From the IMG/VR virus record IMGVR_UViG_3300021962_000218, positions 1 through 42,466 of that record: 42,466 bases of DNA, one strand, 5' to 3'. Made by a program: the position numbers and the translations under genes. Positions 15,864 to 42,312 of this stretch are shown here, piece by piece. Every line of letters begins with the position of its first letter. Position 1 is the stretch's first letter. The stretch is from a virus. The notes beneath the pieces were generated by a model. That model was not told where the DNA came from, made no database searches, and saw only the letters and a list, made by a program, of their open reading frames with translations.

Positions 15864-16258
15864 GACTTTGGTAACACTTCCTGTGGTAGAGGAAGAATTG
15901 GGGCCAAAACCTTGGACAGGGAGTCTGCCCCGCGCTCGGTCTCTACGTCAAAAAGCTTCTCGAAGATGGCAAACCCCTCACTGCCGAGCACGCCATTGAG
16001 CATGTTGACTGCCCTCTCGACCCCGGCATAGTGGATGTGGATCAGCTCGTGGGCAATAACCCTGCGCTGCTCTAGCTGGGTCTGGTCAAAGAAGTCGGCA
16101 GACACACGCAAGGTGGCCTCCCATAGGTTGTCGCTCACCTCGATATCGGCCCAGGCGTCGTCGTCGGATGTGTCCTTGTCTACCTCAACCTTCCAGTGGG
16201 AAAGGCCAAGCCTAGTCTTGCAGATGTCTACGTACCACTGAAGCGAATCTCTATCCAC
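15860..16258 (-). CDS. Zinc metallopeptidase-like protein (HExxH)
   Basis: A 132-residue protein with the zinc-protease motif HELIH at residues 70-74. The motif lies within a hydrophobic helix (RRVIAHELIHIHYAG), and a downstream FDVETERGAD segment (about 103-112) can supply the third acidic ligand. The layout resembles short ImmA/IrrE-like or SprT-like phage metallopeptidases. The GTG start lies inside the end of the giant gene, with GGAGG 5 bases upstream, so the two are co-translated. It could process the giant protein or other virion parts, or act on a host protein. The substrate is not evident. Confidence 0.7.
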   Translation of the reverse strand: MDRDSLQWYVDICKTRLGLSHWKVEVDKDTSDDDAWADIEVSDNLWEATLRVSADFFDQTQLEQRRVIAHELIHIHYAGVERAVNMLNGVLGSEGFAIFEKLFDVETERGADSLSKVLAPILPLPQEVLPKS

Positions 16259-19200
16259 CGAACCCTCCCTTTGATGTAAATTCAGACTCCAGCAAGGACC
16301 TGGTGTCGCCCTCGGTGTCCTTTTTTGCTACGTTCCTTGGAATCCTGCGCGTAGGGGTCATGTCGAACGTAGAGTTCTTCCCTGTGATCTTGGAATACAT
16401 CTCGTCAGCGAACAGACCGCCAGCAATTGACCCAGGGAGGGCCCCTGCGCCGCCAGTTGCCAGGCCTCCGGCGATCCCGCCGACCGTACCGCCGACCAGG
16501 CCGATGGCAGTCCTGAGGATATCGCCTCCGGTGAGGGCAGTATAGCCCAACATGGCCCCGCCAGCCAGCCCAAGCGTGGTAATGCCTCCACCGAACTTAG
16601 CTGGGACCGGCAATCGGCTAATTGCCTCAGTACCGGCCACCATTCCTACCAATGGGGCGTACTGTGCGCCCTTGTTGTACAAGCCCTCGAGGGATGCCTG
16701 CTCATTTTCGTCGCTAGAACCGTTCTTCATCTCGTTAATCAAGGCCATAAGCGCCACGGCACCAGTTGTGCCACGCAGAACGCCCTTGCCGTACCTGGAG
16801 AACTTGGATGCGACGTTGGTTGGGCCGGTCTTTGGCCCGTTTTCGTCAAATGCCTTGGCCTCATCGTACTTCTGGTAGTTGAAACCGGCAGCTTCTGCCT
16901 TCATAATAGCGGAATCCAGGATTTGCTGGGCCCTTGCCGCAGATCCGATAGCCCCACGCGCACCACCGCCACTAACTTCCATCCTTCTCTCAGCTGCTAG
17001 CATTGCGTTTGCTTCTCGTAGCGTCAGTAGGTCCATGTCGCCGGCACCGAGGACCACCTTCCTCTTCACAACCTTCTCTGCCTTGCTCATCGAAGCGATG
17101 GTTCTGGCCTTAATAACGCCAATCCGGTTCTTTGCATCATTAGCAAAGGCCCCGTATCCTTCTTCAGGGGGGAGAATTCTACCATTCTCATCTACGATAA
17201 TGGCCGGTAGTACCCTTGAAAGGTCTACTCGCGGGTCTTGCGAGATAAGTCCTGATACCTCTTGGTAGAACATGTTAGAAATTGCCCCGTCAAATAGTGA
17301 CGACTCAGGGACGTCGTGCAATCGGCTGTCCGCAACGAAGTAATCTCGGTTCATTCCAAGAGTGTACCGGCCTTGCGCAATCTGAACGTCAAATGGAGAC
17401 AGGTTGTTCTTCTCGATAGCATCAGCAAGCTCTGCTGAGTACGCAGCCATAGCGGCCTGCTTCTCAACCTCACTCATGGACAAAGGCAGATCTGGCGGCA
17501 CAGGAATCTCTGTGTATGTGTCTACGTACTTGTCAAGACCCATGGAAGTAAGGGCCTCTGTCATTTCCTGGAAGCTCATTCCCCTATTGTCAACAACCTC
17601 AGGGGCCACGACGTACGTCTTGCCGCCATTTGCGCTAGGCTGCGATACAACAGGCATGATGCCGAACCTGCCGGTTCCATCTGGGTCAACTGTGTACACA
17701 AGCATGGTCTGGTTCTTCTCAATGTACTTAGACACGTGCTTCCACATAGGGATTTCGCCGTCGTCGTTGTAGTCAACTTCTACCGACCCGTTGAACACCT
17801 TGTTGTGCTGACCAAAGTCGTCGATAACATAGACTGCTCCCTCAGAATCGCTGTTTGTAACAAGCTCTGGGTACCTTGTGATGGATTCCACAAAGCTTGG
17901 ATCGGCCTCGGCCTGTACGTTTTCAGGGAGCTCGATATATCCAAGGCTCTTAATCGCAGATGCAGCAGACTGATTGGCATGCTGAGTCTCAAGAATGCGG
18001 ATGAGCTGTCCGATTACTCCCTTACGTTGAGTCCCAATGTTGTAGACCATGATGTTGTGGGCAAGGTCAAGAACTCGCTTTGCCCTTGCTGGGTTCCTGA
18101 CGGCCATATTAGCAATGGCGGTTTCTGGGTCATCGACCGAGACAAATGCCGGCTTGCTGTCCTTACCTGGCCTCTTTGGATCTACCTTTGCCGGGGAGTC
18201 AGTAACCACTGCTCCCTCAACGGCCCTAAATTTCCTGTTCCTTTCTCGTGCTTCGAGAACGCTTTGGTCTACCGGGACTTTAAGTCTGGTACCAGGTGGC
18301 AAAGCCATTTCGATCTTGGCGTTTTCCTTTAGGTAGTACGACCCGTCTTCGTCTTTCTCCGCGATGCCCATTTCCTCAAAGAGAGGCCCGTTGGCTTGCA
18401 CTAGCGAGTTATCTTTTACAATATTTTCCATGTGCTGCATAGAGTAGCCTTCTCCACGAAGCAGTGAGCCTAATGTCTCCCCCCTCTTTGAAGGTCGAGT
18501 AAGCTCCTCTTTGTCCATTTTGCCAAATCCTGTTTGTCCTGCGGCCTGATCAGGTACGTCCGTAGACTCTGTACGAGTTACTCCGCTGTCGTCAACGTAC
18601 TGGCGTGGCGTATCGATGCTAACCACGCCCTGCTCGATTGATTCCCTAAACTTCTGCTCGAAGTCAGTAGCAAGCTTCCATGCGATTGAGATGTCTTGTT
18701 GGGATTCTTTCTTCTTTGACCCGTACGCGATGATGGCTGGGTTGGTCTCAATTGTGTAGGAGCCGTTTGTGTCTACGGGCTCTTCAACCACGTACCCAAA
18801 TGTCTGACGGCCAGGTGTTCTCTTTAGGGAGCCAAACACAACATCTGATGCTCGCGCAATCTCAGCGGTGTAGAGAACCTGGCGCAGCTCTGGGCGGTCC
18901 TTGATGAAGTTGATGATGTTCTGCGTCGCAACCCTGGCCCCATCGATATCCTGGTTCTGTGGGTTGGTCTCCCTAGCAACGGAGTAGTAGTGAAGCTTCC
19001 TTGCCGAGTACGCCTCGATGCGGAGAAGCTGCTTAAGCAACTGCTCTACTAGTTGAGTGTCCGACTTTGCGGCCTTAATTAGAGCTTCCTGAAGTTCTCG
19101 GTTGACAAGGATCTCGCCCATGTTTCCATCGTATAGCTCTTCAAGTGGCTGAACCCTAATGGATGAAGACGCCCTGCGAGCCGCTGCGCTGGTTACCCCT

Positions 19201-22200
19201 CCAGGAATCAAGGCGTTTTTCTTTGCAGTTACCCTCGCAGCCTCTTCCTTTTCCATGCGCTCGATCATCATCTTCCTTCTGGTAGGCTTGATGTCCTCTG
19301 GGATAGAAGATTCGTTTAGAAGCTTATCGATCTCCTCAATGCTTACTGCCGGCACTAGCCCTCTTAGAATAAGGCCTTTCTGATACTCGATTGCGTCACC
19401 CCTGAATAGCCGGGTTTCATCTGGCCTTGGGCCAATGCCTGCAAGGATATTTGTAGTTTCGTCAACTGGAAGTCCACCCTCAGTTGCGCCGAGTAGCTGA
19501 GCCTTCCTGAATTTTCTAAACTCGGCGTTCTCGTCATATTGCTGCTCAACGCTTTCGCTGACTTCCTGGTCACCGGTAACTCCAATACCTTCGACAATAG
19601 GGGCACCCGGGTACTTGCCACGGAGAACAACTTCATAGTCTCCCTGAAGGTCGAAAGTACGTGGGGCCATAACCTCTGCAAAGTTTACTTCTCTGCCGTC
19701 TGGAAGCATGGTCATTGCTCCCCTCCACCAGCCGGCATCGATCTTTCTCTTGATATCAGCGTACTTAGGGTTCTGAAGCAGCGGATGGTTGGGGTCTAGC
19801 TCTGGGTTAAACAGCTCTACAGGTACTGACACGTTGACGTACCGAACCGTCTCGTCAGGTACGAGCGCATACTTCTTAGCCTTGACTGTAACCACAGTGT
19901 TATCAATAGTTATCGTTGGTTCTGGCTGGCCGGGCTTTCTCTCGGGTACGTCAACAAGCTTGAACTGACGTGGGGCTTGAACGCTGATCTCGATGGTACC
20001 CTGAGGCTCCAGGAATGCATTTGCGGTGATCATGCGGTATGTCTCAACGCCATTCTTGCTGTATGGAGAAAGGGTACGCGGCATAAGTTTGGCAAACCCG
20101 TTCATCTCCTGTGAGGAGTCCAATACATCCTCCAGCGCACCAAGACCGCTTGCCCTTGCAATGCCAAACCCATTTACCCTTTGTTCTGGGTCGTACTGCT
20201 CGTCTACAACCGAAAGCTCTGAGTTGACGGTAGGCCTGTATCCGACTATGTCAGATGGCATTTCTGCAATCTCAATGCCCATTTCCCTAAGTGATTCTAG
20301 CTCCGGGGCGATCTGTTCGTCTAGAACAAAGTGTGTCTTCCCTGGCTTAATCTGAGTTGGGACTTTAGTTACAACCCGGTCTTTCTCGACCTCTAGGTCG
20401 TATTCAACAGTGTCCTCAGTGACGTTTGTAATCATGAGGATCCTGATGTTTCCAAGTCTTCGGATAGCGCTTCTGGTCAAGTCGTCAGCCTTCTTAAAGA
20501 TACCAGCCACCCCACCAGGCGTTTCGTAGTCTCCCATCGTGCTGTCGTCGATGGTGATAATGTCCATGAACCCAGACGACCTGATTTGTCCTGCTCTCTC
20601 AACAGGGAAAATCCAAGGGTGCCTCTTTGTGAAGTCCATAAATCCATCTCGCATGCTGGCCTCAAACAGCGCAGGTGCATTCTCTAGGCCAGGGTAGTAG
20701 TTAATTGTAGCCGCCTTATCCATTGCGTAGTCAGGACCAAATCCGTATCCATCGAGGTACTGCTGCTCAGGGGTAATGTACCCATTGAGGTCAAACCAAA
20801 GGTCGCGGATGCCACTGCGTCGCCCATACTTATCCTCAAGGGCGTACGCCTGCACGGTTCGTGACAGTCTGCGCACAAACTTCTTGAGCTCAGCAGACTT
20901 CTCCTCAGGGTCCGTAGTAAGATCATACTCCGGAATGTAGTCCTTTACTGTTGACTCTAGCTCAGGGCTAACTGATAGGAACTGCGCTCCGGTTTCGGTT
21001 AGCTCGACGCTAATACGACCAAGGATGTCGTCGACCTTGTTCCAGTCAAGGCCGGCCCACGCACCGCCCCGGCCCATATCCCTGATGGCAAGTCCGTAAT
21101 CAAAGGGGGTGAACTTACCTTTTTCATAGAATGCGTTGTAGTCTAGAGCCTCAGTGTCATTTAGGGTCTGCGCGTTCTGCACAATTGAGGCAATGGTGCG
21201 CTGGATAAGAGGAACGTAGTCTGAGTTCTGCGCAAAGATCATCGGCTTCCTCTCGAAGTGATCTAGAAGTGCCGTAGTTTGGTCGATTGACTGGTCCATC
21301 TGGGTGGCAGATGGAGACTCGTGCCACTTGTCCAGACCCCTGCCGAACATGGCCCCAGTGCTTGCCATGTCGCCGGCAGCTACAGATAGAGCGCGTGACG
21401 ACACCCCTGAGTCCTGAAGGGAAGCTGCAAGCTTAGACTGTAGGCTGGTAAACATTGCGGTAACAGCTGGCCCAGGATTCTTACCTGGCGCCTTTCCGGC
21501 CATGATTAAGGATACGAGGTACTTGCCTCGCACTGAGTAGGCTTGCAGGAAACGGCTCTGTGCCTCGATCTTATCGGCAACCTTGGTCTTCTTGTCCATA
21601 AGGGCACGGATATTAGCGTGCGCCCCAGGGTCAATCTGCTTGTGGCTCTCGTCTGTCTTGGCCAGCTTGGCACTGGCCTCAAGTAGCTCGATGTAGGCAT
21701 TGATAAAGTTGTTTTCAATTGGGTCTTCAAAGGATGGCTGCAGACCGGATAGCTTTAGCTTGGGCCCTCGCATTGCCTCAAGCGCACGCCCAACAGTCTT
21801 TGGCACTGGACCCGGAACGACCACCTCTGCGTTGTCAGGTAGGGACGCGGCAGGGGCAGAAACAAGGGTCTCTGGCGTAATGACCGGAGCCGGTGCCGCC
21901 GGAATCGCCTCAGATGGGGCTGGGAGCCCCGCTACGGCCTGTTCTGGTGCAATCTGGGGTGCTGGCGCCACCTGTGCAGGAATCGCGGCTCCTGGCGATG
22001 CTAGCAGGGCGCTAAGGATTTCAGCCTTTAGGGCTGGGTCCTGGATTGCCAAGGCATTTCGGAGCGCATCTGGGTTTGGCGCGAAGGCTGCACCTGGAGT
22101 GGACGGGGCAGGGGCGGCTACCGCAGCCGGGGAAGGCGCCGGTGCGGCAGCCTGAGGCATAAATGCGGCTGCAGGTGGGGTGGCAGGTGCCTCAAATGGT

Positions 22201-23834
22201 GCTATTGGGGTCTGAGTCTTGGCCTGGATAGGCTTTGGGATGTTGCGCTCTGGCACTTTGCTCATGGACCGTACAGACCTTGCGTAGCTGTCGGCGTCGT
22301 ACCCCTCGCTTGCGGCCATATCCTGTACGGACATGGTGCTCATCTGGCCTGTGGTGATGTCCTTCATGGCAACAAGGCCAGTTCGTCGGTCGAATGCCAG
22401 GATCTGGTACTTGCCAGTCAGCTGAACAAACACCTGGTTGCCTGGGGTCGTCTTGCCTACGTTGATTACATCGCCAACCTTGGCGTCAGGCACCAGGTCA
22501 ACTCGTGTTGCGCGGGTAGTTGCTCTACGTTCGCCGGAAAGGATCTTCCTAAGGTTGCTCCTCTTGTCACCAGGCCGGGCTGGCATTGGGTATCCGTCTA
22601 CCCCAGGGGTTCCGCTGTGAATAATAAAACCCTTCACCGTACCAGTCGTCACTGCGTCCTGGGGGATCAGGGTAAAGGTGTAGTGCATAGTGGCGCCGGA
22701 GCCTGGGATATCGTTCATGCCGGCTACTGGCTTAATCTGTACGGCCCCGCCTGCCGTGCGGTCGATAGGGGTGGCGGAAGGCTTGGCCGGAGCTGGCGCT
22801 ACCTGGGCTGGCTTGGCCGGGGCTGGCTGAACCTGTGCAGCAGCTTGAGCAAACAGGGGCTTTGTAAACTTATCTAGAGCTTCATTTACCTTCTGCCTCT
22901 CTTCAACTGGTGCCTCTTCGAGCCCTACCTCGTTAACAATCTTGTAGTAAAGATCCCTGACTGCAGGTCGTGCGGCGTCCTGGCCATTCTTTTTTACATA
23001 TTCAACAAGAGTTAGGATATCCTTCTCTCGTGACTTTATTGCTGAATTGATTCTGTCTTCAAGCTTAGCCGGGGCAGCCTCTTCAGAGCCTTCGTTCTGG
23101 GCGTCCTCCATGACATCGTCAACCAAGTCGTCCATTGGGCCAGGGTACGAGATGCCACCCTGCTTGTCTACCATAACACCGTCTGCAATGGCCTGCTCAA
23201 CGGTTAGTCCTGCATCCTGAAGAACCTTAACCTGCTCCGGGGTGTACGGTGAGGCTGGTGCCCCAGCTGCCGGAGCGGAGGGAGCAACAGCAGCTGGGGT
23301 TGCAATTGGCGCCGTCGCCGTTTTTTCGGGGGTAGGAGCGATTTTTTCTGGGGCCTGCTCAGCCGGGGGTACTTCTCCTCTGACGTCGGCATAGGGGTCG
23401 GCCTGGTAGTCTGGCTCACCGGTAGGCATACCAGCCTCAACAGCCGGGGCTGGAGCCGATACTGGCGCCGCAGCTGGTGCTTTCTTGGCCTCAGCCGCGA
23501 GCAGCATCTGCTTGTAGTAGACCTTCATCCCCTTGCGGACGACGGACTCAGGGAGCTTGGTGCGGTAGGCAATCAGGTCGACGAGGTTCTTGGACTTGGC
23601 TGGGTCGTTGACCTGCCCTACGTTCCAGATGGTGTCGACCAGCTCCTCCATGACCGTAATGAGGTCTTCGCGGCCAGAGACGATACCGGCGGCCTTGCGC
23701 TGGAGCATCCCTTCGCCGGGGCGGAAGTAGTCACCAGGGCGCAGCGGGGCAGGGCCAAGCGCTCGCACCTCATCTTGGAGGCCCTCGAGCTGCTTGCGAA
23801 TTCCCGCTAGGTCAAAGTCTGGTCGCTTCATCAT
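16251..23834 (-). CDS. Giant multidomain phage protein (2,527 aa)
   Basis: One uninterrupted frame of about 2,527 residues, roughly 18% of the genome. From the N-terminus: a short helical domain; Ala/Pro/Glu-rich linkers (about 118-345); a segment near 400-485 with LSGERRATTR followed by VGDVINVG, which resembles an ASCH (PUA-like) domain; a second Pro/Ala linker (about 540-670); long helical and beta-rich regions without recognised motifs; and near residues 2398-2478 a Gly/Ala-rich hydrophobic region able to span or disrupt a membrane, then a charged tail. The pattern of unrelated modules joined by linkers recalls large phage 'polyvalent' proteins delivered with DNA. I place the start at the ATGATG at 23834, because the longer frame back to 23942 would read through a promoter-like motif and a palindrome. 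The upstream AGGGG is a weak ribosome site. Confidence 0.7.
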   Translation of the reverse strand: MMKRPDFDLAGIRKQLEGLQDEVRALGPAPLRPGDYFRPGEGMLQRKAAGIVSGREDLITVMEELVDTIWNVGQVNDPAKSKNLVDLIAYRTKLPESVVRKGMKVYYKQMLLAAEAKKAPAAAPVSAPAPAVEAGMPTGEPDYQADPYADVRGEVPPAEQAPEKIAPTPEKTATAPIATPAAVAPSAPAAGAPASPYTPEQVKVLQDAGLTVEQAIADGVMVDKQGGISYPGPMDDLVDDVMEDAQNEGSEEAAPAKLEDRINSAIKSREKDILTLVEYVKKNGQDAARPAVRDLYYKIVNEVGLEEAPVEERQKVNEALDKFTKPLFAQAAAQVQPAPAKPAQVAPAPAKPSATPIDRTAGGAVQIKPVAGMNDIPGSGATMHYTFTLIPQDAVTTGTVKGFIIHSGTPGVDGYPMPARPGDKRSNLRKILSGERRATTRATRVDLVPDAKVGDVINVGKTTPGNQVFVQLTGKYQILAFDRRTGLVAMKDITTGQMSTMSVQDMAASEGYDADSYARSVRSMSKVPERNIPKPIQAKTQTPIAPFEAPATPPAAAFMPQAAAPAPSPAAVAAPAPSTPGAAFAPNPDALRNALAIQDPALKAEILSALLASPGAAIPAQVAPAPQIAPEQAVAGLPAPSEAIPAAPAPVITPETLVSAPAASLPDNAEVVVPGPVPKTVGRALEAMRGPKLKLSGLQPSFEDPIENNFINAYIELLEASAKLAKTDESHKQIDPGAHANIRALMDKKTKVADKIEAQSRFLQAYSVRGKYLVSLIMAGKAPGKNPGPAVTAMFTSLQSKLAASLQDSGVSSRALSVAAGDMASTGAMFGRGLDKWHESPSATQMDQSIDQTTALLDHFERKPMIFAQNSDYVPLIQRTIASIVQNAQTLNDTEALDYNAFYEKGKFTPFDYGLAIRDMGRGGAWAGLDWNKVDDILGRISVELTETGAQFLSVSPELESTVKDYIPEYDLTTDPEEKSAELKKFVRRLSRTVQAYALEDKYGRRSGIRDLWFDLNGYITPEQQYLDGYGFGPDYAMDKAATINYYPGLENAPALFEASMRDGFMDFTKRHPWIFPVERAGQIRSSGFMDIITIDDSTMGDYETPGGVAGIFKKADDLTRSAIRRLGNIRILMITNVTEDTVEYDLEVEKDRVVTKVPTQIKPGKTHFVLDEQIAPELESLREMGIEIAEMPSDIVGYRPTVNSELSVVDEQYDPEQRVNGFGIARASGLGALEDVLDSSQEMNGFAKLMPRTLSPYSKNGVETYRMITANAFLEPQGTIEISVQAPRQFKLVDVPERKPGQPEPTITIDNTVVTVKAKKYALVPDETVRYVNVSVPVELFNPELDPNHPLLQNPKYADIKRKIDAGWWRGAMTMLPDGREVNFAEVMAPRTFDLQGDYEVVLRGKYPGAPIVEGIGVTGDQEVSESVEQQYDENAEFRKFRKAQLLGATEGGLPVDETTNILAGIGPRPDETRLFRGDAIEYQKGLILRGLVPAVSIEEIDKLLNESSIPEDIKPTRRKMMIERMEKEEAARVTAKKNALIPGGVTSAAARRASSSIRVQPLEELYDGNMGEILVNRELQEALIKAAKSDTQLVEQLLKQLLRIEAYSARKLHYYSVARETNPQNQDIDGARVATQNIINFIKDRPELRQVLYTAEIARASDVVFGSLKRTPGRQTFGYVVEEPVDTNGSYTIETNPAIIAYGSKKKESQQDISIAWKLATDFEQKFRESIEQGVVSIDTPRQYVDDSGVTRTESTDVPDQAAGQTGFGKMDKEELTRPSKRGETLGSLLRGEGYSMQHMENIVKDNSLVQANGPLFEEMGIAEKDEDGSYYLKENAKIEMALPPGTRLKVPVDQSVLEARERNRKFRAVEGAVVTDSPAKVDPKRPGKDSKPAFVSVDDPETAIANMAVRNPARAKRVLDLAHNIMVYNIGTQRKGVIGQLIRILETQHANQSAASAIKSLGYIELPENVQAEADPSFVESITRYPELVTNSDSEGAVYVIDDFGQHNKVFNGSVEVDYNDDGEIPMWKHVSKYIEKNQTMLVYTVDPDGTGRFGIMPVVSQPSANGGKTYVVAPEVVDNRGMSFQEMTEALTSMGLDKYVDTYTEIPVPPDLPLSMSEVEKQAAMAAYSAELADAIEKNNLSPFDVQIAQGRYTLGMNRDYFVADSRLHDVPESSLFDGAISNMFYQEVSGLISQDPRVDLSRVLPAIIVDENGRILPPEEGYGAFANDAKNRIGVIKARTIASMSKAEKVVKRKVVLGAGDMDLLTLREANAMLAAERRMEVSGGGARGAIGSAARAQQILDSAIMKAEAAGFNYQKYDEAKAFDENGPKTGPTNVASKFSRYGKGVLRGTTGAVALMALINEMKNGSSDENEQASLEGLYNKGAQYAPLVGMVAGTEAISRLPVPAKFGGGITTLGLAGGAMLGYTALTGGDILRTAIGLVGGTVGGIAGGLATGGAGALPGSIAGGLFADEMYSKITGKNSTFDMTPTRRIPRNVAKKDTEGDTRSLLESEFTSKGGFGG

Positions 23835-23878
23835 ACCCCTATATAAGAGTTTAGAATAATTACTTATATCTGTTTTAC

Positions 23879-23896
23879 CACCCTTATATAAGGGTG
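23879..23896. promoter_or_regulatory. Perfect 18-bp palindrome, putative operator
   Basis: CACCCTTATATAAGGGTG equals its own reverse complement. It lies between the leftward promoter-like motif and the giant gene, in the expected 5' untranslated region. Degenerate relatives occur at 23835-23850 and, inside a gene, at 24994-25008. A dimeric regulator binding site or a short RNA hairpin are both possible. Confidence 0.55.
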
Positions 23897-23901
23897 TATT
23901 G

Positions 23902-23927
23902 TCTCTATATGTATCCAATGATGTCAA
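23902..23927 (-). promoter_or_regulatory. 26-nt promoter-like motif, copy upstream of giant gene
   Basis: On the minus strand: TTGACA, four variable bases, TGGATACATATAGAGA. It matches the site at 15838-15863 at every base except the four spacer bases and one pyrimidine. It sits about 70-95 bases upstream of the start of the giant gene and points towards it. Confidence 0.65.
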
Positions 23928-23962
23928 GCCCAACGCACACAAGATTAAGGAAACTTATCAAT

Positions 23963-24038
23963 GGGGGGTGTCCAGTGCGGAGGCCAGGTAACCCTCCTGT
24001 GGAAGGCGACCTCTGGAAATGCTGGCATCCGACCCCCC
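23963..24038. ncRNA. GC-rich foldable 76-nt element, possible structured RNA
   Basis: The ends GGGGGGT (23963-23969) and ACCCCCC (24032-24038) form a perfect 7-bp closing helix. Inside, CCAG (23972-23975) can pair with CTGG (24022-24025), and GGAGG (23979-23983) with CCTCC (23993-23997). The length and 7-bp end helix match a tRNA, but there is no T-loop sequence or anticodon arm, so it is not a canonical tRNA. It is much more GC-rich than the flanking DNA. The strand is uncertain. Confidence 0.35.
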
Positions 24039-24056
24039 GTAACAAAAATGCGCGAC

Positions 24057-24116
24057 CCACTGAGACCCGGCGGCAGATCAGTAGTGGAACTGGCTTCTCG
24101 GTTCTCCCAAAGGTCG
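24057..24116 (+). promoter_or_regulatory. Two-hairpin leader element, copy A
   Basis: Hairpin 1 pairs CCAC/GTGG (24057-24060 with 24084-24087) with an additional TGA/TCA. Hairpin 2 pairs GAACTG (24087-24092) with CGGTTC (24099-24104); one base is shared, so the hairpins may compete. The element ends in TCCCAAAG. CTCGGTTCTCCCAAAG is shared with copy B. It lies about 40 bases before the 24154 gene. It is the most diverged of the three copies. Confidence 0.55.
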
Positions 24117-24153
24117 TGAGGGGTTATCGACCGCAGTGAAGGAGGTTCGCAAG

Positions 24154-24534
24154 ATGGCGAACAAGGTGCGCCCGATGGGCAAGCCCGCAGTTGAGAAGGG
24201 CGATGTTCTCGACACACTAACGATTGCGCACGGCGTAATCCTAGGGTCATTCGACCACCCGGACGCAAAGCCCGAGGCGGTGGGTTCGGAGCGTGACGAC
24301 TTCGAGATCACCTCGAGCAACTTGAAGGGGGATCGCGTCCTCTTCACGGTTGTGTCGTTCCGGAGCGACGGAACAATCGCATCGTTCCGCCGAGCCGCTG
24401 CTCGAACTCCCGAGATGGCTGCCGCAGTCATCGCAGCCCAGTGGAAGCCTATCCAGGCGACCTTCGTGAGCCGCTATGACTCGAAGAATCGTCTCGAGTG
24501 GAACGACATCTCCGCTCTGGAGATTCTCGGCTAG
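24154..24534 (+). CDS. Hypothetical protein with highly expressed codon style (126 aa)
   Basis: Unrecognised 126-residue, mixed alpha/beta protein. ATG 24154 is chosen because GAAGGAGG lies 8 bases upstream; a GTG at 24136 would place that site inside the gene. Unlike the other plus-strand genes it uses GC-ending codons almost throughout (ATC, TTC, GAC, AAG, CGC), a style otherwise seen only in the major capsid gene. It is monocistronic, with its own leader and a UUCG-loop terminator, again like the capsid gene. This suggests very strong expression: an abundant early takeover protein or a decoration protein. No motif decides between these. Confidence 0.8.
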   Translation: MANKVRPMGKPAVEKGDVLDTLTIAHGVILGSFDHPDAKPEAVGSERDDFEITSSNLKGDRVLFTVVSFRSDGTIASFRRAAARTPEMAAAVIAAQWKPIQATFVSRYDSKNRLEWNDISALEILG

Positions 24535-24547
24535 CACTCGCAGCACA

Positions 24548-24581
24548 GTGGCGGGGTAGCCCTTCGGGGTTACCCCGTCAC
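24548..24581 (+). terminator. UUCG-loop terminator hairpin
   Basis: GTGGCGGGGTAGCCC (24548-24562) pairs over 15 bp, including two G-U pairs, with 24567-24581 around a TTCG tetraloop. There is no long T-run afterwards, but the stem is very stable and lies 14 bases after the stop of the 24154 gene. It probably ends that transcript or protects its 3' end. Confidence 0.75.
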
Positions 24582-24619
24582 TTGCACAAGGCCGCCGTTG
24601 AGTCTCAGTTATTGGATAC

Positions 24620-24640
24620 GATACCAGTTGTTAAGGTATC
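24620..24640. promoter_or_regulatory. GATACC / GGTATC inverted repeat
   Basis: GATACC (24620-24625) and GGTATC (24635-24640) are complementary arms around 9 bases, upstream of the second plus-strand block. The same hexamers form inverted repeats at 25044-25063 and 27673-27691. A weak -35-like TTGTTA and a TATACG lie around it, but with 15-base spacing. It could be an operator or a small RNA stem. Confidence 0.3.
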
Positions 24641-24703
24641 ATAACCTTTATACGAGAGCAAGCATGAGGAGGTAGGATGATAGTTGATAAGGTAAGTAGG
24701 AGG

Positions 24704-24787
24704 GGGGTATGGTGGGGTGGTAGTGTAATACCCCTCACGATTACTCTCATGGAGAGGGCCACTCGGTTCTCCCAAAGTTGTAGCATA
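24704..24787 (+). promoter_or_regulatory. Two-hairpin leader element, copy B
   Basis: Hairpin 1: GGGGTAT (24704-24710) with ATACCCC (24728-24734). Hairpin 2: GGAG and GGCC (24751-24754, 24757-24760) with GGTT and CTCC (24765-24768, 24769-24772), an AG bulge and an ACTC loop. The 44 bases 24744-24787 match copy C at 41 positions. The element ends 6 bases before the AAGGAG ribosome site of the next gene. CTCCC in its 3' part could alternatively pair with that site. Confidence 0.65.
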
Positions 24788-24806
24788 ACTGAGAAGGAGT
24801 TGATAA

Positions 24807-25106
24807 GTGTCACAGTATAGAGTTGTTAAGCACAATCCACCGGTACCTAACGAACCGGAAGAGTACACAGTGTACATGTATGGATATGATAAGCAACTGA
24901 TGTACTACTTCCTATCCATCGTGGATAGCAATGTACCAGGGGTGTTCGACCCTAATAGCGGAGAAGATACAGTCGAGCTGGTAGGTATGCTATCACCCCT
25001 ATATGGGGATAAGACTAACCTACACACTAAGATGACTGAGCATGGTATCTGGCATATGATACCAGCTGAGCATAAGACAGCTATCCTTATGGACCTTCCC
25101 TTCTAA
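24807..25106 (+). CDS. Hypothetical early protein (99 aa)
   Basis: Unrecognised 99-residue acidic protein, rich in Tyr, Pro and Met, with no membrane segment. The GTG start is supported by AAGGAG 7 bases upstream. It is the first gene after leader copy B, so probably the lead gene of the second plus-strand unit. An inverted repeat of TGGTATC/GATACCA lies inside its coding region (25043-25064). Confidence 0.75.
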   Translation: MSQYRVVKHNPPVPNEPEEYTVYMYGYDKQLMYYFLSIVDSNVPGVFDPNSGEDTVELVGMLSPLYGDKTNLHTKMTEHGIWHMIPAEHKTAILMDLPF

Positions 25107-25159
25107 TGACTAATGATTCGAATAAGAACCACAGTATAGCAACAGAAAGGGATGTAACA

Positions 25160-25291
25160 ATGGAGTGCTTTCAGTGTAACAATCCTATCGCATTGTGCAC
25201 ATGCGAATGTGTAGTATGTGGCAAGGTACATGACTGCAGCGAGACACTGCTCCCTAATGGAGAGTGCGAGTGCTGCTGGTTGAATAAGTAG
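25160..25291 (+). CDS. Cysteine-rich zinc-binding-type peptide (43 aa)
   Basis: About 43 residues with ten cysteines: CFQC near the start, then CTCECVVC, and ECECC near the end, plus a His. This spacing fits one or two small treble-clef or zinc-ribbon sites. ATG 25160 has AAAGGG about 8 bases upstream. An in-frame ATG at 25106, overlapping the previous stop (TAATG), would add 18 polar residues and is a real alternative. Such peptides in early phage regions often bind host proteins or nucleic acid; the function here is unknown. Confidence 0.65.
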   Translation: MECFQCNNPIALCTCECVVCGKVHDCSETLLPNGECECCWLNK

Positions 25292-25299
25292 GAGGATGT

Positions 25300-25782
25300 A
25301 TGTTGTATCAGAAGTATGAGTTCACAGTGGTAAGGAGAGAGCTTAACCCAAGGACAATGAGAATTGAACGGCCAGCTACAGCAGTAGAATACTTCCAGGA
25401 GTTTGCCGATGGCGCAAGCCAAGAGTCCCTATTCGTACTGATCGTAGACGCTCGCAACAATCTCATTGGTATTAAGGAGGTATACCGTGGCACGGCAACA
25501 GGTACTAGCGTACGCATTGCCGAGCTGCTATCGCCAGTGCTTATGAACAATGGCGTTGGTATGGTATTGATTCACAACCACCCAAGTGGTGACCATCAGC
25601 AATCAGATGAAGACGAGAGGCTTACTGGCGATGTTGTCCAAGCAGCTAGACTTATGGACATTGAGATGCTAGACCATCTTATCATTGGCAAGGATGGGTT
25701 CACTAGCATCAGGTCGAATAAGCCAGGGATGTGGGAGCTACCAGTTGGGTACCCCTATCCTAATGATGTATTGGAGGGATAG
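25300..25782 (+). CDS. RadC-type JAB/MPN domain protein
   Basis: A 160-residue protein with the JAMM metal motif: HNHPSGD at residues 92-98, followed by Ser102 and Asp105 (S-x2-D), and Glu60 at the usual upstream position. The surrounding sequence (VLIHNHPSGDHQQSDEDERLT, then a DIEMLDHLIIG segment) is typical of the RadC C-terminal domain. The helix-hairpin-helix domain of bacterial RadC is absent, so this is the JAB-only form found in mobile elements and phages. Metal-dependent peptidase or nuclease-like activity is possible; the biological role of this family is unsettled. An AGGAGG site lies 4 bases before ATG. Confidence 0.85.
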   Translation: MLYQKYEFTVVRRELNPRTMRIERPATAVEYFQEFADGASQESLFVLIVDARNNLIGIKEVYRGTATGTSVRIAELLSPVLMNNGVGMVLIHNHPSGDHQQSDEDERLTGDVVQAARLMDIEMLDHLIIGKDGFTSIRSNKPGMWELPVGYPYPNDVLEG

Positions 25783-25785
25783 ATA

Positions 25786-25890
25786 ATGTGCGTAACATTT
25801 GGTGAGTGGCATTTCTTGAGTGGCTTTATAGCCGGTGCGGTGGTAGCCATCGCTGCACTATGGTATGTGGCTAGAGAGGGGGTAAACTAA
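25786..25890 (+). CDS. Single-span membrane peptide (34 aa)
   Basis: A 34-residue frame with one clear membrane segment, FLSGFIAGAVVAIAALWYV, and a short charged C-terminus. GGAGG lies 8 bases before ATG and the gene starts 4 bases after the RadC-like gene stop, which supports translation. It pairs with a second membrane peptide immediately downstream. It might depolarise or modify the host membrane, but this is inference. Confidence 0.6.
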   Translation: MCVTFGEWHFLSGFIAGAVVAIAALWYVAREGVN

Positions 25891-25891
25891 C

Positions 25892-26002
25892 ATGGATATT
25901 ACACAGTTCGGATGGACATTAGTAGCTTCCATTATCGGGACAGTGATAGGCATCGTGATCTTTATGATCTTCGATAAGGCATATCCCGGTACATTTAATT
26001 GA
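25892..26002 (+). CDS. Single-span membrane peptide (36 aa)
   Basis: A 36-residue frame starting one base after the previous stop, with a GAGGGGG site about 8 bases upstream. Residues about 8-27 (TLVASIIGTVIGIVIFMIF) form one membrane span, followed by a short soluble end. Tight packing with the preceding membrane peptide suggests a two-component membrane function. It is the last gene before leader copy C. Confidence 0.6.
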   Translation: MDITQFGWTLVASIIGTVIGIVIFMIFDKAYPGTFN

Positions 26003-26009
26003 GGGTGCA

Positions 26010-26095
26010 GCCGGATGGTAGAGGTGTGGTTCGCCAGCCATCCGGCACACGCTCTTATGGAGAGGGCCGCTTGGTTCTCCCAAAGTTGTAGCATA
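26010..26095 (+). promoter_or_regulatory. Two-hairpin leader element, copy C
   Basis: Hairpin 1: GCCGGATGG (26010-26018) with CCATCCGGC (26038-26046), a perfect 9-bp stem. Hairpin 2: GGAG, AG bulge, GGCC (26059-26068), loop GCTT, GGTT and CTCC (26073-26080). Bases 26052-26095 match copy B at 41 of 44 positions. It ends at the AGGAGG site that serves the 26107 gene. Two of the three B/C differences lie in or beside the hairpin 2 loop. Confidence 0.65.
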
Positions 26096-26106
26096 GGAGG
26101 TACACA

Positions 26107-26565
26107 ATGGTAAAGGAATACGAGGTCAAACTTAGGTTTGATAGCGAGATCGCAGCGGAGAACACATACCTTGCATTGGTCACGGCCATTAGCATGTTGC
26201 GTTCATTCGCTGGTAATCCACCAAGGTTCCGTAACAATTACCTTGAGACATTCAGCCAGGCTGAGCAGATGTTTATGGAACGAGAAGGTGTAACCAATAG
26301 CGAGGCAGCTGACTGGACACACACTAACCTAGAGATTTACTTTGCCAACCTGCAGAATGCAGTTTATGCAACAGCACTGGCAATGGAAGAAGACTTTGGT
26401 AGTATTGTTCCAGTTGATCGCGACCTATTGCTTGAGATTGATGGACACGTACACGAGGACAACCCCGTATCGCAAGAGACATTGGAAGGAGGTGTTGATC
26501 TACCAGAAGAACTCCGTAAGCAGATAGAGGCTATCTTCAACGGAGCTAGCGAAGAAGGGAACTAG
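26107..26565 (+). CDS. Hypothetical early protein (152 aa)
   Basis: Unrecognised 152-residue acidic, helical protein. It begins with a short beta segment (YEVKLRFDSEIAAENTYLALVTA) that resembles a small alpha/beta fold, then is helical to the end. AGGAGG lies 6 bases before ATG. It leads the third plus-strand unit directly behind leader copy C. Confidence 0.75.
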   Translation: MVKEYEVKLRFDSEIAAENTYLALVTAISMLRSFAGNPPRFRNNYLETFSQAEQMFMEREGVTNSEAADWTHTNLEIYFANLQNAVYATALAMEEDFGSIVPVDRDLLLEIDGHVHEDNPVSQETLEGGVDLPEELRKQIEAIFNGASEEGN

Positions 26566-27664: not shown

Positions 27665-27666
27665 TT

Positions 27667-27789
27667 ATGTCCTGGTATCATGGCGATACCAGGAATGATA
27701 GGGACAAGCACGATGAGGAGCTGATACAGTTCTTCATCGTGCTGTTCCTGTTATCTCCGGTACTAATCATATCTTGTATAGGAGGTTAG
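27667..27789 (+). CDS. Possible 40-residue membrane peptide overlapping hairpins
   Basis: An ATG frame of 40 codons with a charged N-terminal half and a hydrophobic end, FFIVLFLLSPVLIISCI, that would span a membrane. It fills the gap between two genes and its TAG precedes the next ATG by one base. It lacks a convincing ribosome site. Its sequence is also constrained by two long hairpins, so it may not be a gene at all. Confidence 0.35.
   Translation: MSWYHGDTRNDRDKHDEELIQFFIVLFLLSPVLIISCIGG
27671..27743 (+). ncRNA. Tandem hairpins, structured RNA segment
   Basis: Hairpin 1: CCTGGTATC (27671-27679) pairs perfectly with GATACCAGG (27685-27693) around 5 bases. Hairpin 2: 27707-27723 pairs over 17 bp, with two G-U pairs, with 27727-27743 around the loop ATA; a GGA/TCC helix extends it beyond a 2-base mismatch. 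No T-run follows, so a simple intrinsic terminator is unlikely. Candidates are an RNase III processing site, an mRNA stabiliser or a small RNA. Confidence 0.6.
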
Positions 27790-27790
27790 C

Positions 27791-37369: not shown

Positions 37370-37593
37370 TAGTTACCTCCGTTTGTCAAGGCTTCGTACA
37401 CCTTGGCTACCAGGGTTAGCACGCCTCCTAAAATGGAAGCAATGATCCCTGCACGCCACTTTACATCAAGCTGGTTGTCCTGTCTTGCCCTACGCACAGC
37501 CCTTGCCCCGGCAGATTCGACCTCAACCTCACGCAACCGGGCGTCAATGTCGTCGAGCCTGGACAGTAGGATTTCAAACTGACCCCTGGTCAT
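37369..37593 (-). CDS. Small coiled-coil membrane protein (XhlA-like)
   Basis: A 74-residue protein with an amphipathic N-terminal helix (LLSRLDDIDARLREVEVE) and one C-terminal membrane span (AGIIASILGGVLTLVAKVYEAL). This coiled-coil-then-span layout resembles XhlA-type haemolysin/holin accessory proteins. The start overlaps the end of the tail hub gene and the stop overlaps the exonuclease start. It may assist lysis or be a membrane anchor. Confidence 0.6.
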   Translation of the reverse strand: MTRGQFEILLSRLDDIDARLREVEVESAGARAVRRARQDNQLDVKWRAGIIASILGGVLTLVAKVYEALTNGGN

Positions 37594-39761
37594 AGGTTGA
37601 ATCTCTCTGGCCTGTTGTTGATGCGTGGGGCGTTAGGCCTTGCCGTTCCTGATGAGCCTGTCCTTGGCGGGGTAGGCGCAGTCCTAGGCTTAGGATTTGG
37701 CGGCGTAGGTACAGTTGCTGGAGTGGTCGGTCCTGGGTCAGGGGTTGGGGCAGGAGCAGCATCCCAGGTAATGGCTGGCCCCTTGAACTTGGTAGGCTTA
37801 ACCAGGTCAAGGACTAGCTTCTCTGTGCCGTCGATCTTTGCTGTCCACTCCATGCCGCCTACGTTATAGTTACCTTCCAGCTGGTCGCCGCCAACGGTGG
37901 CACTCTTCCGCCTGACTACAACCTTAACGGTCTCGCCAAGCTTGGGCGTACCGGTTACACCGATAGGGCCATATAGGTCTGTCCGCAAAGACACCTTGAT
38001 AGCCTGAACGTCTGCGTCTGTGCCGTAGTCATTGATGATACCATTGGCATGGTTGGTTGCAGCCTGGGCGGAAAGGAACCCACCCTGTGCAATGACAGAT
38101 GGCAGGGCAGGGCTTGATGATGTAACGCTAGCCTCCTTGACAACTGACCCCTTGGTCTTAGAACCTGAAGCTCCTTCAGTACTGGCACCGATCAGGAAGT
38201 CGGTGGTTGGGATGACCCTGGCAGAGGTAATCTTCTTGCTTCTCTTGTTTGTTACATTGAAGTCCCTGATCTGGCCTGGGTAGATAAGCGTCGCTTGTGG
38301 GTTGGACGAGACAGAGTAGTTTATACTCAGCTTCTTACCGTCGGAAGCGCCGGAGGGAACCCCATAGAAGTTAAAGACAACCTTTTCCCCGTTAGACCTA
38401 GACCCCATTTCGATGTCAGCTAGATCACGCATAAACTCTACTGGTCCTTGCCCGGCAGAAACGTAAGGATGAATAGTTGTTGGATTAGTACCTAGATGTT
38501 CTAGTGACATAAACTTAGTAAGAGGTAGTGGGGCGGGGGTGATGCCGGGGTAATCATCTTCCCTATTCATAACGTTGGCAGGGTCAGTCAAATCCAATAG
38601 GTCAATGAAAGCCTCTTTAATGTTATTTGTCTGAAGCCCAGCTGTGAAGATAGACTCCGGAGCCCTAGTCGTGGCACCCCAGATCGTTTGATTGAATGCA
38701 CCAGTAGACGCGGTAAGTCGTCCCTGATAGTATGGTGTTACATAGAACTCATAACTAACGCCTTCAGACAGGACAGACAAGGTCCTGTTTAGGTCTGTTC
38801 CTGTGTGGTCCTCAGTGCCAGAGTCATAGTTAGATACCGGTCGAAGCTTGACGTTAAAGTTAAGAGCTCCGTATCCACCGCTCGTATATCCAATGTCCAA
38901 TTGCCCTGCTGCAATGTAGACATCGAACTCTACCTTGGCAAGTGGACCGCCAGGGTTTGCTGAAATAATAAATCCGATCTGGCCCTTAGCCGAAGAGCTT
39001 GTCCCGATGGCAAAGTCCCCGTTGATAAGTTTTCCAGTTTCACCGTCCTGGAATTTGTTGGAGGATGCCGCTCTCCAAATATACATAGCTCCCTTTAGAA
39101 TGACTGTCCCTGTCTTAACTCCCGAGACCTCCTCGTACTCCACAGTCAGCGCATCCCTTGATCCGCTTGGCGGTGCGTCTCCTCCACCACCGCCTGCTGC
39201 CTGAGCCACTCCGGAATAGATCGATACCTTACCAACGTTTGGGTAGGTAGAGTCAGTAGTAGAGACAGCGAAGCTCTCAGATGCCCTAAGGCGATCTTTC
39301 GCGCTAGCTACTTCGATGACAGACTTAGGAGTAATGTCTGGAGTTGGTGCGGTGTTGTCAACTAAGATTGTTGTATCAGTGTTTGGGATTGCCTTGGCCC
39401 CAAGATCGGGGCCGTGGATGGGTGTGTAATACTTGTTGAACGTGGTCATGTAGTCAACGCCGGTAATCACTACCTCGTTTGGAGCTGCGTCATAGTCAGT
39501 AATAAACCCAGACTGGATTACGTCATAGGAGCTACCGTTCCAACGCTCGATAGAGTAGTGCTGGTTAATAGGGTCGATCAGCGGAAGTGCCGGGTGGTCA
39601 ACAGGTAGAGTGAAGTAGCATGATCCATTGTCGTTAGCGAACAGGCTAACGCCTACGTCCCTGGCGTCCTTGATTACAGCAACAACAGGGCCCTGCCAGA
39701 ATGGGTCAGCGGCATTGTATGCTGCTCGAGAGCGGATTACTACAATCGTTTTTGCCGGCAT
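37590..39761 (-). CDS. Tail hub / minor tail protein, Gp37-like
   Basis: A 723-residue protein. The N-terminal ~115 residues and the region from about 385 to 640 resemble the baseplate-hub fold of 'ReqiPepy6 Gp37-like' minor tail proteins (GFITDYDAAPNEVVITGVDYMTTFNKYY; later MRDLADIEMG and NYNVGGMEWT). Between them lies a Gly/Ser-rich inserted region (about 185-375) that may be a carbohydrate-binding or immunoglobulin-like domain. The last ~60 residues are Pro/Thr/Arg-rich and unstructured. It lies directly behind a Dit-like gene, the usual order. It probably forms the tip of a short tail and contacts the cell surface. Confidence 0.7.
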   Translation of the reverse strand: MPAKTIVVIRSRAAYNAADPFWQGPVVAVIKDARDVGVSLFANDNGSCYFTLPVDHPALPLIDPINQHYSIERWNGSSYDVIQSGFITDYDAAPNEVVITGVDYMTTFNKYYTPIHGPDLGAKAIPNTDTTILVDNTAPTPDITPKSVIEVASAKDRLRASESFAVSTTDSTYPNVGKVSIYSGVAQAAGGGGGDAPPSGSRDALTVEYEEVSGVKTGTVILKGAMYIWRAASSNKFQDGETGKLINGDFAIGTSSSAKGQIGFIISANPGGPLAKVEFDVYIAAGQLDIGYTSGGYGALNFNVKLRPVSNYDSGTEDHTGTDLNRTLSVLSEGVSYEFYVTPYYQGRLTASTGAFNQTIWGATTRAPESIFTAGLQTNNIKEAFIDLLDLTDPANVMNREDDYPGITPAPLPLTKFMSLEHLGTNPTTIHPYVSAGQGPVEFMRDLADIEMGSRSNGEKVVFNFYGVPSGASDGKKLSINYSVSSNPQATLIYPGQIRDFNVTNKRSKKITSARVIPTTDFLIGASTEGASGSKTKGSVVKEASVTSSSPALPSVIAQGGFLSAQAATNHANGIINDYGTDADVQAIKVSLRTDLYGPIGVTGTPKLGETVKVVVRRKSATVGGDQLEGNYNVGGMEWTAKIDGTEKLVLDLVKPTKFKGPAITWDAAPAPTPDPGPTTPATVPTPPNPKPRTAPTPPRTGSSGTARPNAPRINNRPERFNL

Positions 39762-41307: not shown

Positions 41308-42312
41308 TTAGAGCGTCGAAGCAACCGACTCGACTCGGATGTAGCGTGGCTGGCCAGTCGAGGTATTGCTACCATCGAACTCGCCGGTCGCACCTTCACC
41401 GCGAAGGATCGCACCGAAGCGCATCTTGAAGCCAAGCGTTGCGATCTGCGAAATCGGATCGCTGTGATCGCCGCCCGGAGCTACGAAGTAGCTCTGGAGC
41501 GTCTGGCTGTCGCCTACGATGTAGGCGTCTGGGCCGAACACGAACGTCGAGTGGATCGTAAGCGCCCCGCCTACACCACCGGTGAACGTTGCAGCCGCTG
41601 GCGATACCATGAAGCGGACACCTGCGTAGGCCCCGATCTCCCCGTTGAGGAGCTCAAGGTTCTTGGTGTACTTAGAAGCTTCGAGGAAGCCGTTCGGGCT
41701 GGTGTCGGTCAGGATGTCGAACTCCACCGAAGGGTGGATGATCGCTCGGTAGAAGCCGTCAGCGAACGTAGGAACGTTTGCTGCCTTGAGCTTAGCTACC
41801 GTCTGCTTGATCTCGAGACCAGTCAGCTTGTCGCCAGCCTGGATAAGCGCACGAGAAGCGCGGCCTGCAGCGTAGCGAACGTTCGTGCCCTGCTTGAGAA
41901 CGTCACGAATGATCGTGTCCATCGACTCAGTTGCAGCACGAGCAAGGCGCTCCGACGCGATTGAGATCAGGTCATGAGGGCTGTCGAGCTGAGCCAGGTC
42001 GGTGATCTTGAGGACCTTACCGTACTGACGAGGAACGAAAGACTCAGTCGTGATCGTCAGGTCATACTCAGCTGGGGCAAGCCCTTCGCCAAGTGTGTCT
42101 GAGATTCCGAGCGGCGTGAGGTCTGGGTAACGAGCGTAGCGGATCTCGTTGCTGCCCTTCTGGAAGCGGCCCGAGGTATAGTTCCCCGGCATCGCATGGA
42201 CCAGTCGGTCGCGCAGGTTCTCCTGAGCCTGCTTGGAAACGAGCTCCGTAATGAGCGCGCTATAGGCGTTGCTTGAGTTAGTATCAAGCAAGGCACGGGT
42301 CTGGTTAGCCAT
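41308..42312 (-). CDS. Major capsid protein, N4-gp56 family
   Basis: A 334-residue protein with features of the N4-gp56 family of HK97-fold capsid proteins: an N-terminal QENLRDRLVHAMPG segment, SFVPRQYGKVLKITDLAQL, and a C-terminal part with YAGVRFMVSP...FGPDAY...GFKMRFGAI. It forms the icosahedral shell. Codons are strongly biased to GC-ending, translation-efficient forms, consistent with the most abundant virion protein. AAGGAG lies 6 bases before ATG, and a stable hairpin follows the stop. Confidence 0.9.
   Translation of the reverse strand: MANQTRALLDTNSSNAYSALITELVSKQAQENLRDRLVHAMPGNYTSGRFQKGSNEIRYARYPDLTPLGISDTLGEGLAPAEYDLTITTESFVPRQYGKVLKITDLAQLDSPHDLISIASERLARAATESMDTIIRDVLKQGTNVRYAAGRASRALIQAGDKLTGLEIKQTVAKLKAANVPTFADGFYRAIIHPSVEFDILTDTSPNGFLEASKYTKNLELLNGEIGAYAGVRFMVSPAAATFTGGVGGALTIHSTFVFGPDAYIVGDSQTLQSYFVAPGGDHSDPISQIATLGFKMRFGAILRGEGATGEFDGSNTSTGQPRYIRVESVASTL

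Follow-up and report, generated by a model that had tools for sequence, protein, structure and literature searches.

The early region and its repeated element

The stretch of DNA analysed here (the window) is a virus record of 42,466 bases with the look of a complete phage genome. The gene for a 171-aa protein (1-516) is at one end of the contig and the major capsid gene (41308-42312) at the other, yet in a relative, G002, they are neighbours; joining the contig ends would make them neighbours here too, so the genome appears complete. Structural and replication genes make up a long leftward unit, and a short rightward unit (24.1-29.7 kb) holds small genes, including one for a RadC-like protein. 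Because of this gene content, the rightward unit is probably an early one and is called so below. Three giant late proteins (2527, 1746, and 905 aa; 16251-23834, 527-5767, and 5767-8484) had no family match by sequence, and the 2527-aa protein (16251-23834) is <20% identical between relatives whose terminases are >85% identical. The divergent region preceding the leftward unit (23835-23930) contains an AT-rich inverted repeat, ACCCTTATATAAGGGT, and, on the minus strand, TTGACA-18-GACAAT. The features of the early region on which the analysis centres are as follows:

24100-24112, plus strand: core of copy A, GGTTCTCCCAAAG (window scan)
24154-24534, plus strand: gene A, first early gene, predicted SSB-like OB-fold protein of 126 aa (AlphaFold2 model and PDB fold matches)
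24547-24582, plus strand: strong hairpin resembling a terminator, separating units A and B (-30.8 kcal/mol)
24765-24777, plus strand: core of copy B, GGTTCTCCCAAAG (window scan)
26073-26085, plus strand: core of copy C, GGTTCTCCCAAAG (window scan)

The 13-mer GGTTCTCCCAAAG begins at 24100, 24765, and 26073, always on the plus strand, and occurs nowhere else in the 42,466 bases. All copies are inside the rightward unit, just 5' of ribosome sites that read AAGGAG or AGGAGG: copy A is followed by a site at 24139-24145 and an ATG at 24154, copy B by a site at 24794 and a GTG at 24807, and copy C by a site at 26095 and an ATG at 26107. A search of the window with a 19-mer, allowing up to 3 mismatches, gave 3 matches vs. 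0.08 expected. The first-pass annotation had described an element repeated before three plus-strand units, with copies B and C matching at 41 of 44 bases, and both statements hold (93% identity between B and C; 61% for copy A). It had also placed the element in no named RNA family, which agrees with our finding that no Rfam covariance model matched at the gathering threshold in the window or at E<=10 within 23840-26300. When the exact core was searched in viral contigs, 12 matches were returned, none with the element's surroundings and apparently by chance. A search of the rest of the window for an antisense match to the core gave 15/20 at best, equal to the sense control.

A sequence search with gene A (24154-24534) gave no family match. 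Its AlphaFold2 model (pLDDT 74) has the strand and helix order of an OB fold, and the best PDB fold matches were mostly single-stranded DNA-binding proteins, at weak scores (E about 0.01-0.05). In relatives whose early region was read, gene A is preceded by at least one copy of the element; G010 and G023 each have two copies of gene A. From position and fold alone, the SSB-like product could be a candidate binding factor, whether the element is read as leader RNA or as promoter. T4 gp32 represses its own leader.

Folding of the element

The hairpins predicted around the three cores are listed here:

24086-24105, plus strand: copy A hairpin 2, GGAACTG / CGGTTCT with a 6-nt loop (-7.2 kcal/mol, no better than shuffles)
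24112-24132, plus strand: small hairpin right after the copy A core, GGTCG...CGACC, 5' of the ribosome site (from the sequence)
24704-24734, plus strand: copy B hairpin 1, GGGGTA...TACCCC, homologous to unit B hairpin 1 in relatives
24750-24774, plus strand: copy B hairpin 2, TGG.AGAGGGCC / GGTTCTCCCA (-13.4 kcal/mol; z -3.1 vs. shuffled 5' side)
24762-24793, plus strand: copy B alternative stem across the core end, CTCGGTT (24762-24768) with AACTGAG (24787-24793) (score 15.8; p 0.03 by shuffling)
26010-26046, plus strand: copy C hairpin 1, GCCGGATGG...CCATCCGGC, homologous to the hairpin preceding the 27791-gene orthologue in relatives
26058-26082, plus strand: copy C hairpin 2 (-13.4 kcal/mol; z -2.1 vs. 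shuffled 5' side)

In copies B and C, hairpin 2 is formed by GG.AGAGGGCC pairing with GGTTCTCCC, and since CTCCC is therefore its 3' arm, only AAAG is left free; the description of TCCCAAAG as an unpaired segment was thus wrong for these two copies. Copy A can form a 7-bp hairpin with changed bases in the 5' arm (GGAACUG/CGGUUCU), with A-U pairs in the coding strand replacing the G-U pairs of B and C. The proposal that copy A keeps the fold with altered stem bases is accurate as far as the hairpin goes, but that hairpin is no more stable than those of shuffled sequences (z = -0.5). For the whole leader, stability exceeds that of shuffles by far in copy C (z -3.45) and somewhat in copy B (z -2.05); in copy A it is that of random sequence (z 0.12). 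The small hairpin just after the core of copy A has counterparts at that position in relatives, and the alternative stem of copy B ends directly 5' of the ribosome site.

The two-hairpin architecture said to be common to all three copies survives only in part: B and C have a stable hairpin 2, but in copy A hairpin 1 overlaps hairpin 2, and hairpin 1 of copy C is homologous to a coreless hairpin found before a different gene in relatives. Hairpin 1 is a module separate from the core element. The copy C version (26010-26046) shares 92.6% identity over 54 nt with a coreless hairpin that stands before the gene 27791 orthologue in G002. Its 14-nt ends do not vary among six genomes, and it shows one compensated change; several core copies, in turn, have no hairpin 1 at all. 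At 27665-27790 the window is without the GCAGCCGGATGGG hairpin that most relatives have before gene 27791, and since the counterpart of that hairpin precedes unit C in the window instead, movement of the module is suggested.

Differently spelled elements in related phages

Queries with the terminase and with the 723-aa protein encoded at 37590-39761 found some 35 related viral contigs, all from uncultured viruses, and the region homologous to 24-30 kb could be read in about 12 of them. Protein searches with the genes adjoining A and C found no relatives, a search for a terminase relative in genome contigs found none, and, at the sensitivity used, isolated phages yielded no relative of the terminase or of the 1746-aa protein. 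In the approximately 12 relatives, equivalent elements occupy matching places in the operons, at early-gene starts and on the early strand; in scans covering the whole window and the full-length G002, they occur on that strand only. The spelling of the core varies between genomes and is nearly constant within each; genome-specific forms include GGTCTGCCCCCCG[A/T]AG, GGACTCCCTTGTATAG, and CCCTCnCCCGTA, and those assigned to particular relatives are:

G002, G015, G024: CTGCCCCCC[G/T]AA, next base G
G012, G014: CTGCCCCCCGTA, next base G
G018: CGCTGGACTnCCCTCCATA
G017: CGCwGGACTCCCTTGTATA
G010, G023, G004: CCCTCnCCCGTA

In unit B the downstream gene can differ between relatives while the element persists. 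Region A of most relatives has an upstream copy that is not adjacent to a gene start. The two-hairpin structure is absent from many copies, and single-hairpin copies are common.

Hairpin 2 arises from pairing of the C-rich core with an arm on its 5' side, and it is well supported. To score this pairing, G-U and A-C were treated alike and only the 5' side was shuffled; among 22 non-redundant copies, the best stem in the 32 nt ending with the core averaged 18.3, compared with 13.3±0.6 after shuffling, and none of 100 shuffles reached the observed value. The paired fraction of cells in the G010/G023/G004 group is 87% (79±1.9 in shuffles) and the covariation score is 0.198 (0.087±0.027 in shuffles, 0/500); related sequences can exceed such shuffles, and slid controls, with 49-65% paired, agree with the result. 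Covariation in homologues, which the first-pass annotation had named as a check, is present in this group. A covariance model built from the group returned 27 matches, all in the early regions of those genomes and none elsewhere within 306 kb. The element is real and under selection as a hairpin; it is repeated, confined to early regions on one strand, conserved in its pairing and specific to each genome in its core. Because relatives carry differently spelled versions at the same places, we regard it as a real, evolving control element with a putative function.

Possible roles: a structured leader RNA or a phage-specific promoter

The interpretation that we favour, tentatively and at somewhat less than even odds, is a structured leader RNA that is recognised by a phage or host factor and sets early-gene expression. 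The element would then be a cis-acting control hairpin at early-gene starts, most likely working in the 5' leader of early mRNAs. It consists of a hairpin with the C-rich core as its 3' arm, followed by a short tail ending in A and lying 2-47 nt 5' of the ribosome site; a trans-acting factor, coded by phage or host, would read the genome's own core spelling and set the translation or stability of early mRNAs. We infer the action as RNA, the binding of a factor and the direction of the effect. Alternatively, the core and its inverted repeat may be read as DNA, as a phage-specific promoter whose transcripts start at the A or purine ending the core. Such a promoter would work in the manner of those used by single-subunit phage RNA polymerases, or of the promoter hairpins used by the virion RNA polymerase of N4, with the small hairpin after the core forming the 5' end of the mRNA. 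This is the main rival, less likely than the leader RNA, and several features speak for it. All 28 copies have A as the base before the core end, and a purine usually follows (G in 17 and A in 5 of the 28); the genome-specific endings TATA|G, AAA|G, and GTA|A resemble T7 and Syn5 promoters, the latter being ATTGGGCACCCGTAA+G (PMC3950665). Copies of the element follow terminator-like hairpins, tandem copies sometimes precede one gene, and the small hairpin often begins within a few bases of the core end. Furthermore, the early promoters of N4 are also conserved hairpins whose stem bases can be exchanged; they serve early genes only and need SSB (PMC4496689), and gene A is predicted to be SSB-like.

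Stems that extend past the 3' end of the core, and would therefore cross the putative transcript start, speak for action as RNA and against the promoter. In unit C, such a stem (GCTGG:CCAGC) is paired in 30/30 cells and in 6/6 distinct sequences, and the unit C of L118 has GCGGG with CCCGC, a compensated change from T-A to G-C; the shuffle control for this stem is weak (90/500) because only one sequence varies. Crossing stems are also found in the B units of the window and of L122 (CCGTTCG:TGAACGG in the latter). The exchange of G-U for A-U pairs on the coding strand between copies A and B of the window is a further point in favour of RNA. Taken over all copies, crossing complementarity is in modest excess, with 4/300 shuffles reaching the observed value, and crossing stems are absent from many copies. 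The promoter is also disfavoured by the search for an enzyme to use it, since family, motif and PDB-profile searches and one fold model revealed no recognisable RNA polymerase gene: the large proteins searched had no Pfam or PHROG match, the RxxxK..YG motif was not found, and profiles against PDB gave no N4 relative, although a very divergent polymerase could escape such a search. The 1746-aa protein gave no usable fold match, and its model (pLDDT 53) is too poor, so that this result does not count against a polymerase. In N4 the hairpin is on the template strand; here, the fold of the coding strand is no weaker than that of the template strand, being better by 1.4 kcal/mol on average (26 vs. 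7 copies; composition control -0.4, sd 2.7). A strand test that compared G-U pairs with A-C mismatches (28 to 6) gave a fraction of 0.82, which is not significant against the 0.72±0.08 from composition alone; this wobble asymmetry does not decide between RNA and DNA. The specific version in which a divergent, virion-carried RNA polymerase uses hairpin promoters, i.e., N4-like early transcription outside the N4 family with an SSB-like product from the first early gene, is improbable in our estimation; its polymerase would perhaps sit in a giant late protein of about 1750-2530 aa. If the element is a promoter, these small phages hide a polymerase invisible to current models.

A leader RNA, for its part, has to accommodate copies away from gene starts, such as the one lying upstream in region A in most relatives, which are odd for a translation element; and the sharing of one core within a genome could instead reflect recent copying of a module. 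We think it improbable that the element is a put- or nut-like antitermination site, in which hairpins of the nascent RNA modify RNA polymerase to read through terminators between early units. Such a site would fit the strong terminator-like hairpins between those units, the two stem-loops of about 70-85 nt in early transcripts, as in HK022 put (PMC9378689), and a boxA-like string, CGCTCTTA, in copy C. However, that string is not conserved and in copy C is part of ACACGCT, the invariant flank of the hairpin-1 module; the two-hairpin structure is missing from many copies; antitermination would not call for a copy close to the ribosome site of each unit, such as most early units have; and put acts without a factor, so that genome-specific spelling is not predicted. 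A lambda-type nut site was rejected as a candidate, as CGCTCTTA occurs only in copy C and is not a conserved boxA before the hairpin.

Least probable by far, and in our judgement very unlikely, are the two mechanisms that the first-pass annotation had raised for the window copies: a switch in which CTCC of the core masks the ribosome site (AGGAG), and a leader peptide. The complementarity behind the switch does exist in the window (5-7 nt), but it is lacking in most relatives, the CTGCCCCCC core of the G002 and G012 types pairing with only 2-4 nt of the ribosome site, and we rejected the switch. The open frames MERATRFSQ, MERAAWFSQ, and VELASRFSQ are present in the window copies; however, the relatives have no common start, frame or peptide, and in some G010 copies the stop codon of the upstream frame falls inside or beside the hairpin, so that the leader peptide was abandoned as well. 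If the element does work as a leader RNA, the factor acting on it in trans would be a tractable new regulator, and the element itself offers a clear handle on early-gene control in an uncultured phage lineage.

Comparison with known systems

Among known systems, the closest is the ESAS of cluster K mycobacteriophages. The element is best described as a start-associated early-gene hairpin; it belongs to the general class of ESAS and differs from it in size, layout and sequence. ESAS and SAS, whose function is unexplained, are also repeats just 5' of the starts of non-structural phage genes and nearly all in one orientation (PMC3203893, PMC11373665). ESAS are imperfect inverted repeats with a consensus that differs between subclusters, as the core here differs between genomes. 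In contrast, ESAS are 17-bp repeats mostly 4-13 bp apart, whereas the stem here has 7-10 bp and the loop 3-6 nt; the fixed 13-bp SAS at the start codon, GGGATAGGAGCCC, holds the ribosome site, which here lies outside the element and has no SAS flanks; and ESAS contain SigA-like -35/-10 hexamers, none of which was seen within the present element. Unlike in ESAS, the 3' arm is the conserved part. The element represents a second, independent case of an unexplained start-associated inverted repeat of the ESAS type.

The promoters of the N4 virion RNA polymerase share with the element a hairpin of fixed and exchangeable stem bases, present in few copies and at early genes only, but they have a stem of 5-7 bp and a 3-nt loop, on the template strand, and are used by the virion polymerase (PMC4496689); the stems here are longer, show no template-strand preference and come with no recognised polymerase. 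As in T7 and Syn5 promoters, a short core is fixed within a genome, differs between genomes and ends in TATA, AAA or GTA before a purine (PMC3950665). T7 promoters, however, are without a conserved inverted repeat, and here no such polymerase gene was found and no copies precede late genes. HK022 put RNA is similar in having two stem-loops in early phage transcripts (PMC9378689), but the present element has no Rfam match, its copies lie at ribosome sites, and two stem-loops are clear only in B and C.

Other sequence signals in the early regions

Relatives also have a motif, AACCTGGCGAATGC or near variants, shortly 3' of terminator-like hairpins, and it is absent from the early region of the window. 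Its sites are at 2368, 3009, 4298, and 7673 in L094 (G010), at 2275, 2921, 3746, and 7411 in L092 (G023), and at 9410 and 8189 on the minus strand in G002. The motif also follows the last convergent terminator, where no early gene comes after. A promoter and a terminator-associated signal are candidates for its role. The unit B leaders of L093 (G012) and L098 (G017) contain, 5' of hairpin 1, a perfect DnaA-box-like sequence, TTATCCACA or its complement, beside TGTTGATAAG repeats, and the two together make a possible replication origin. A GGATACGATA box (24613-24643) is conserved 5' of unit B hairpin 1 in several relatives and is a candidate host-type -10 element for a leader transcript.
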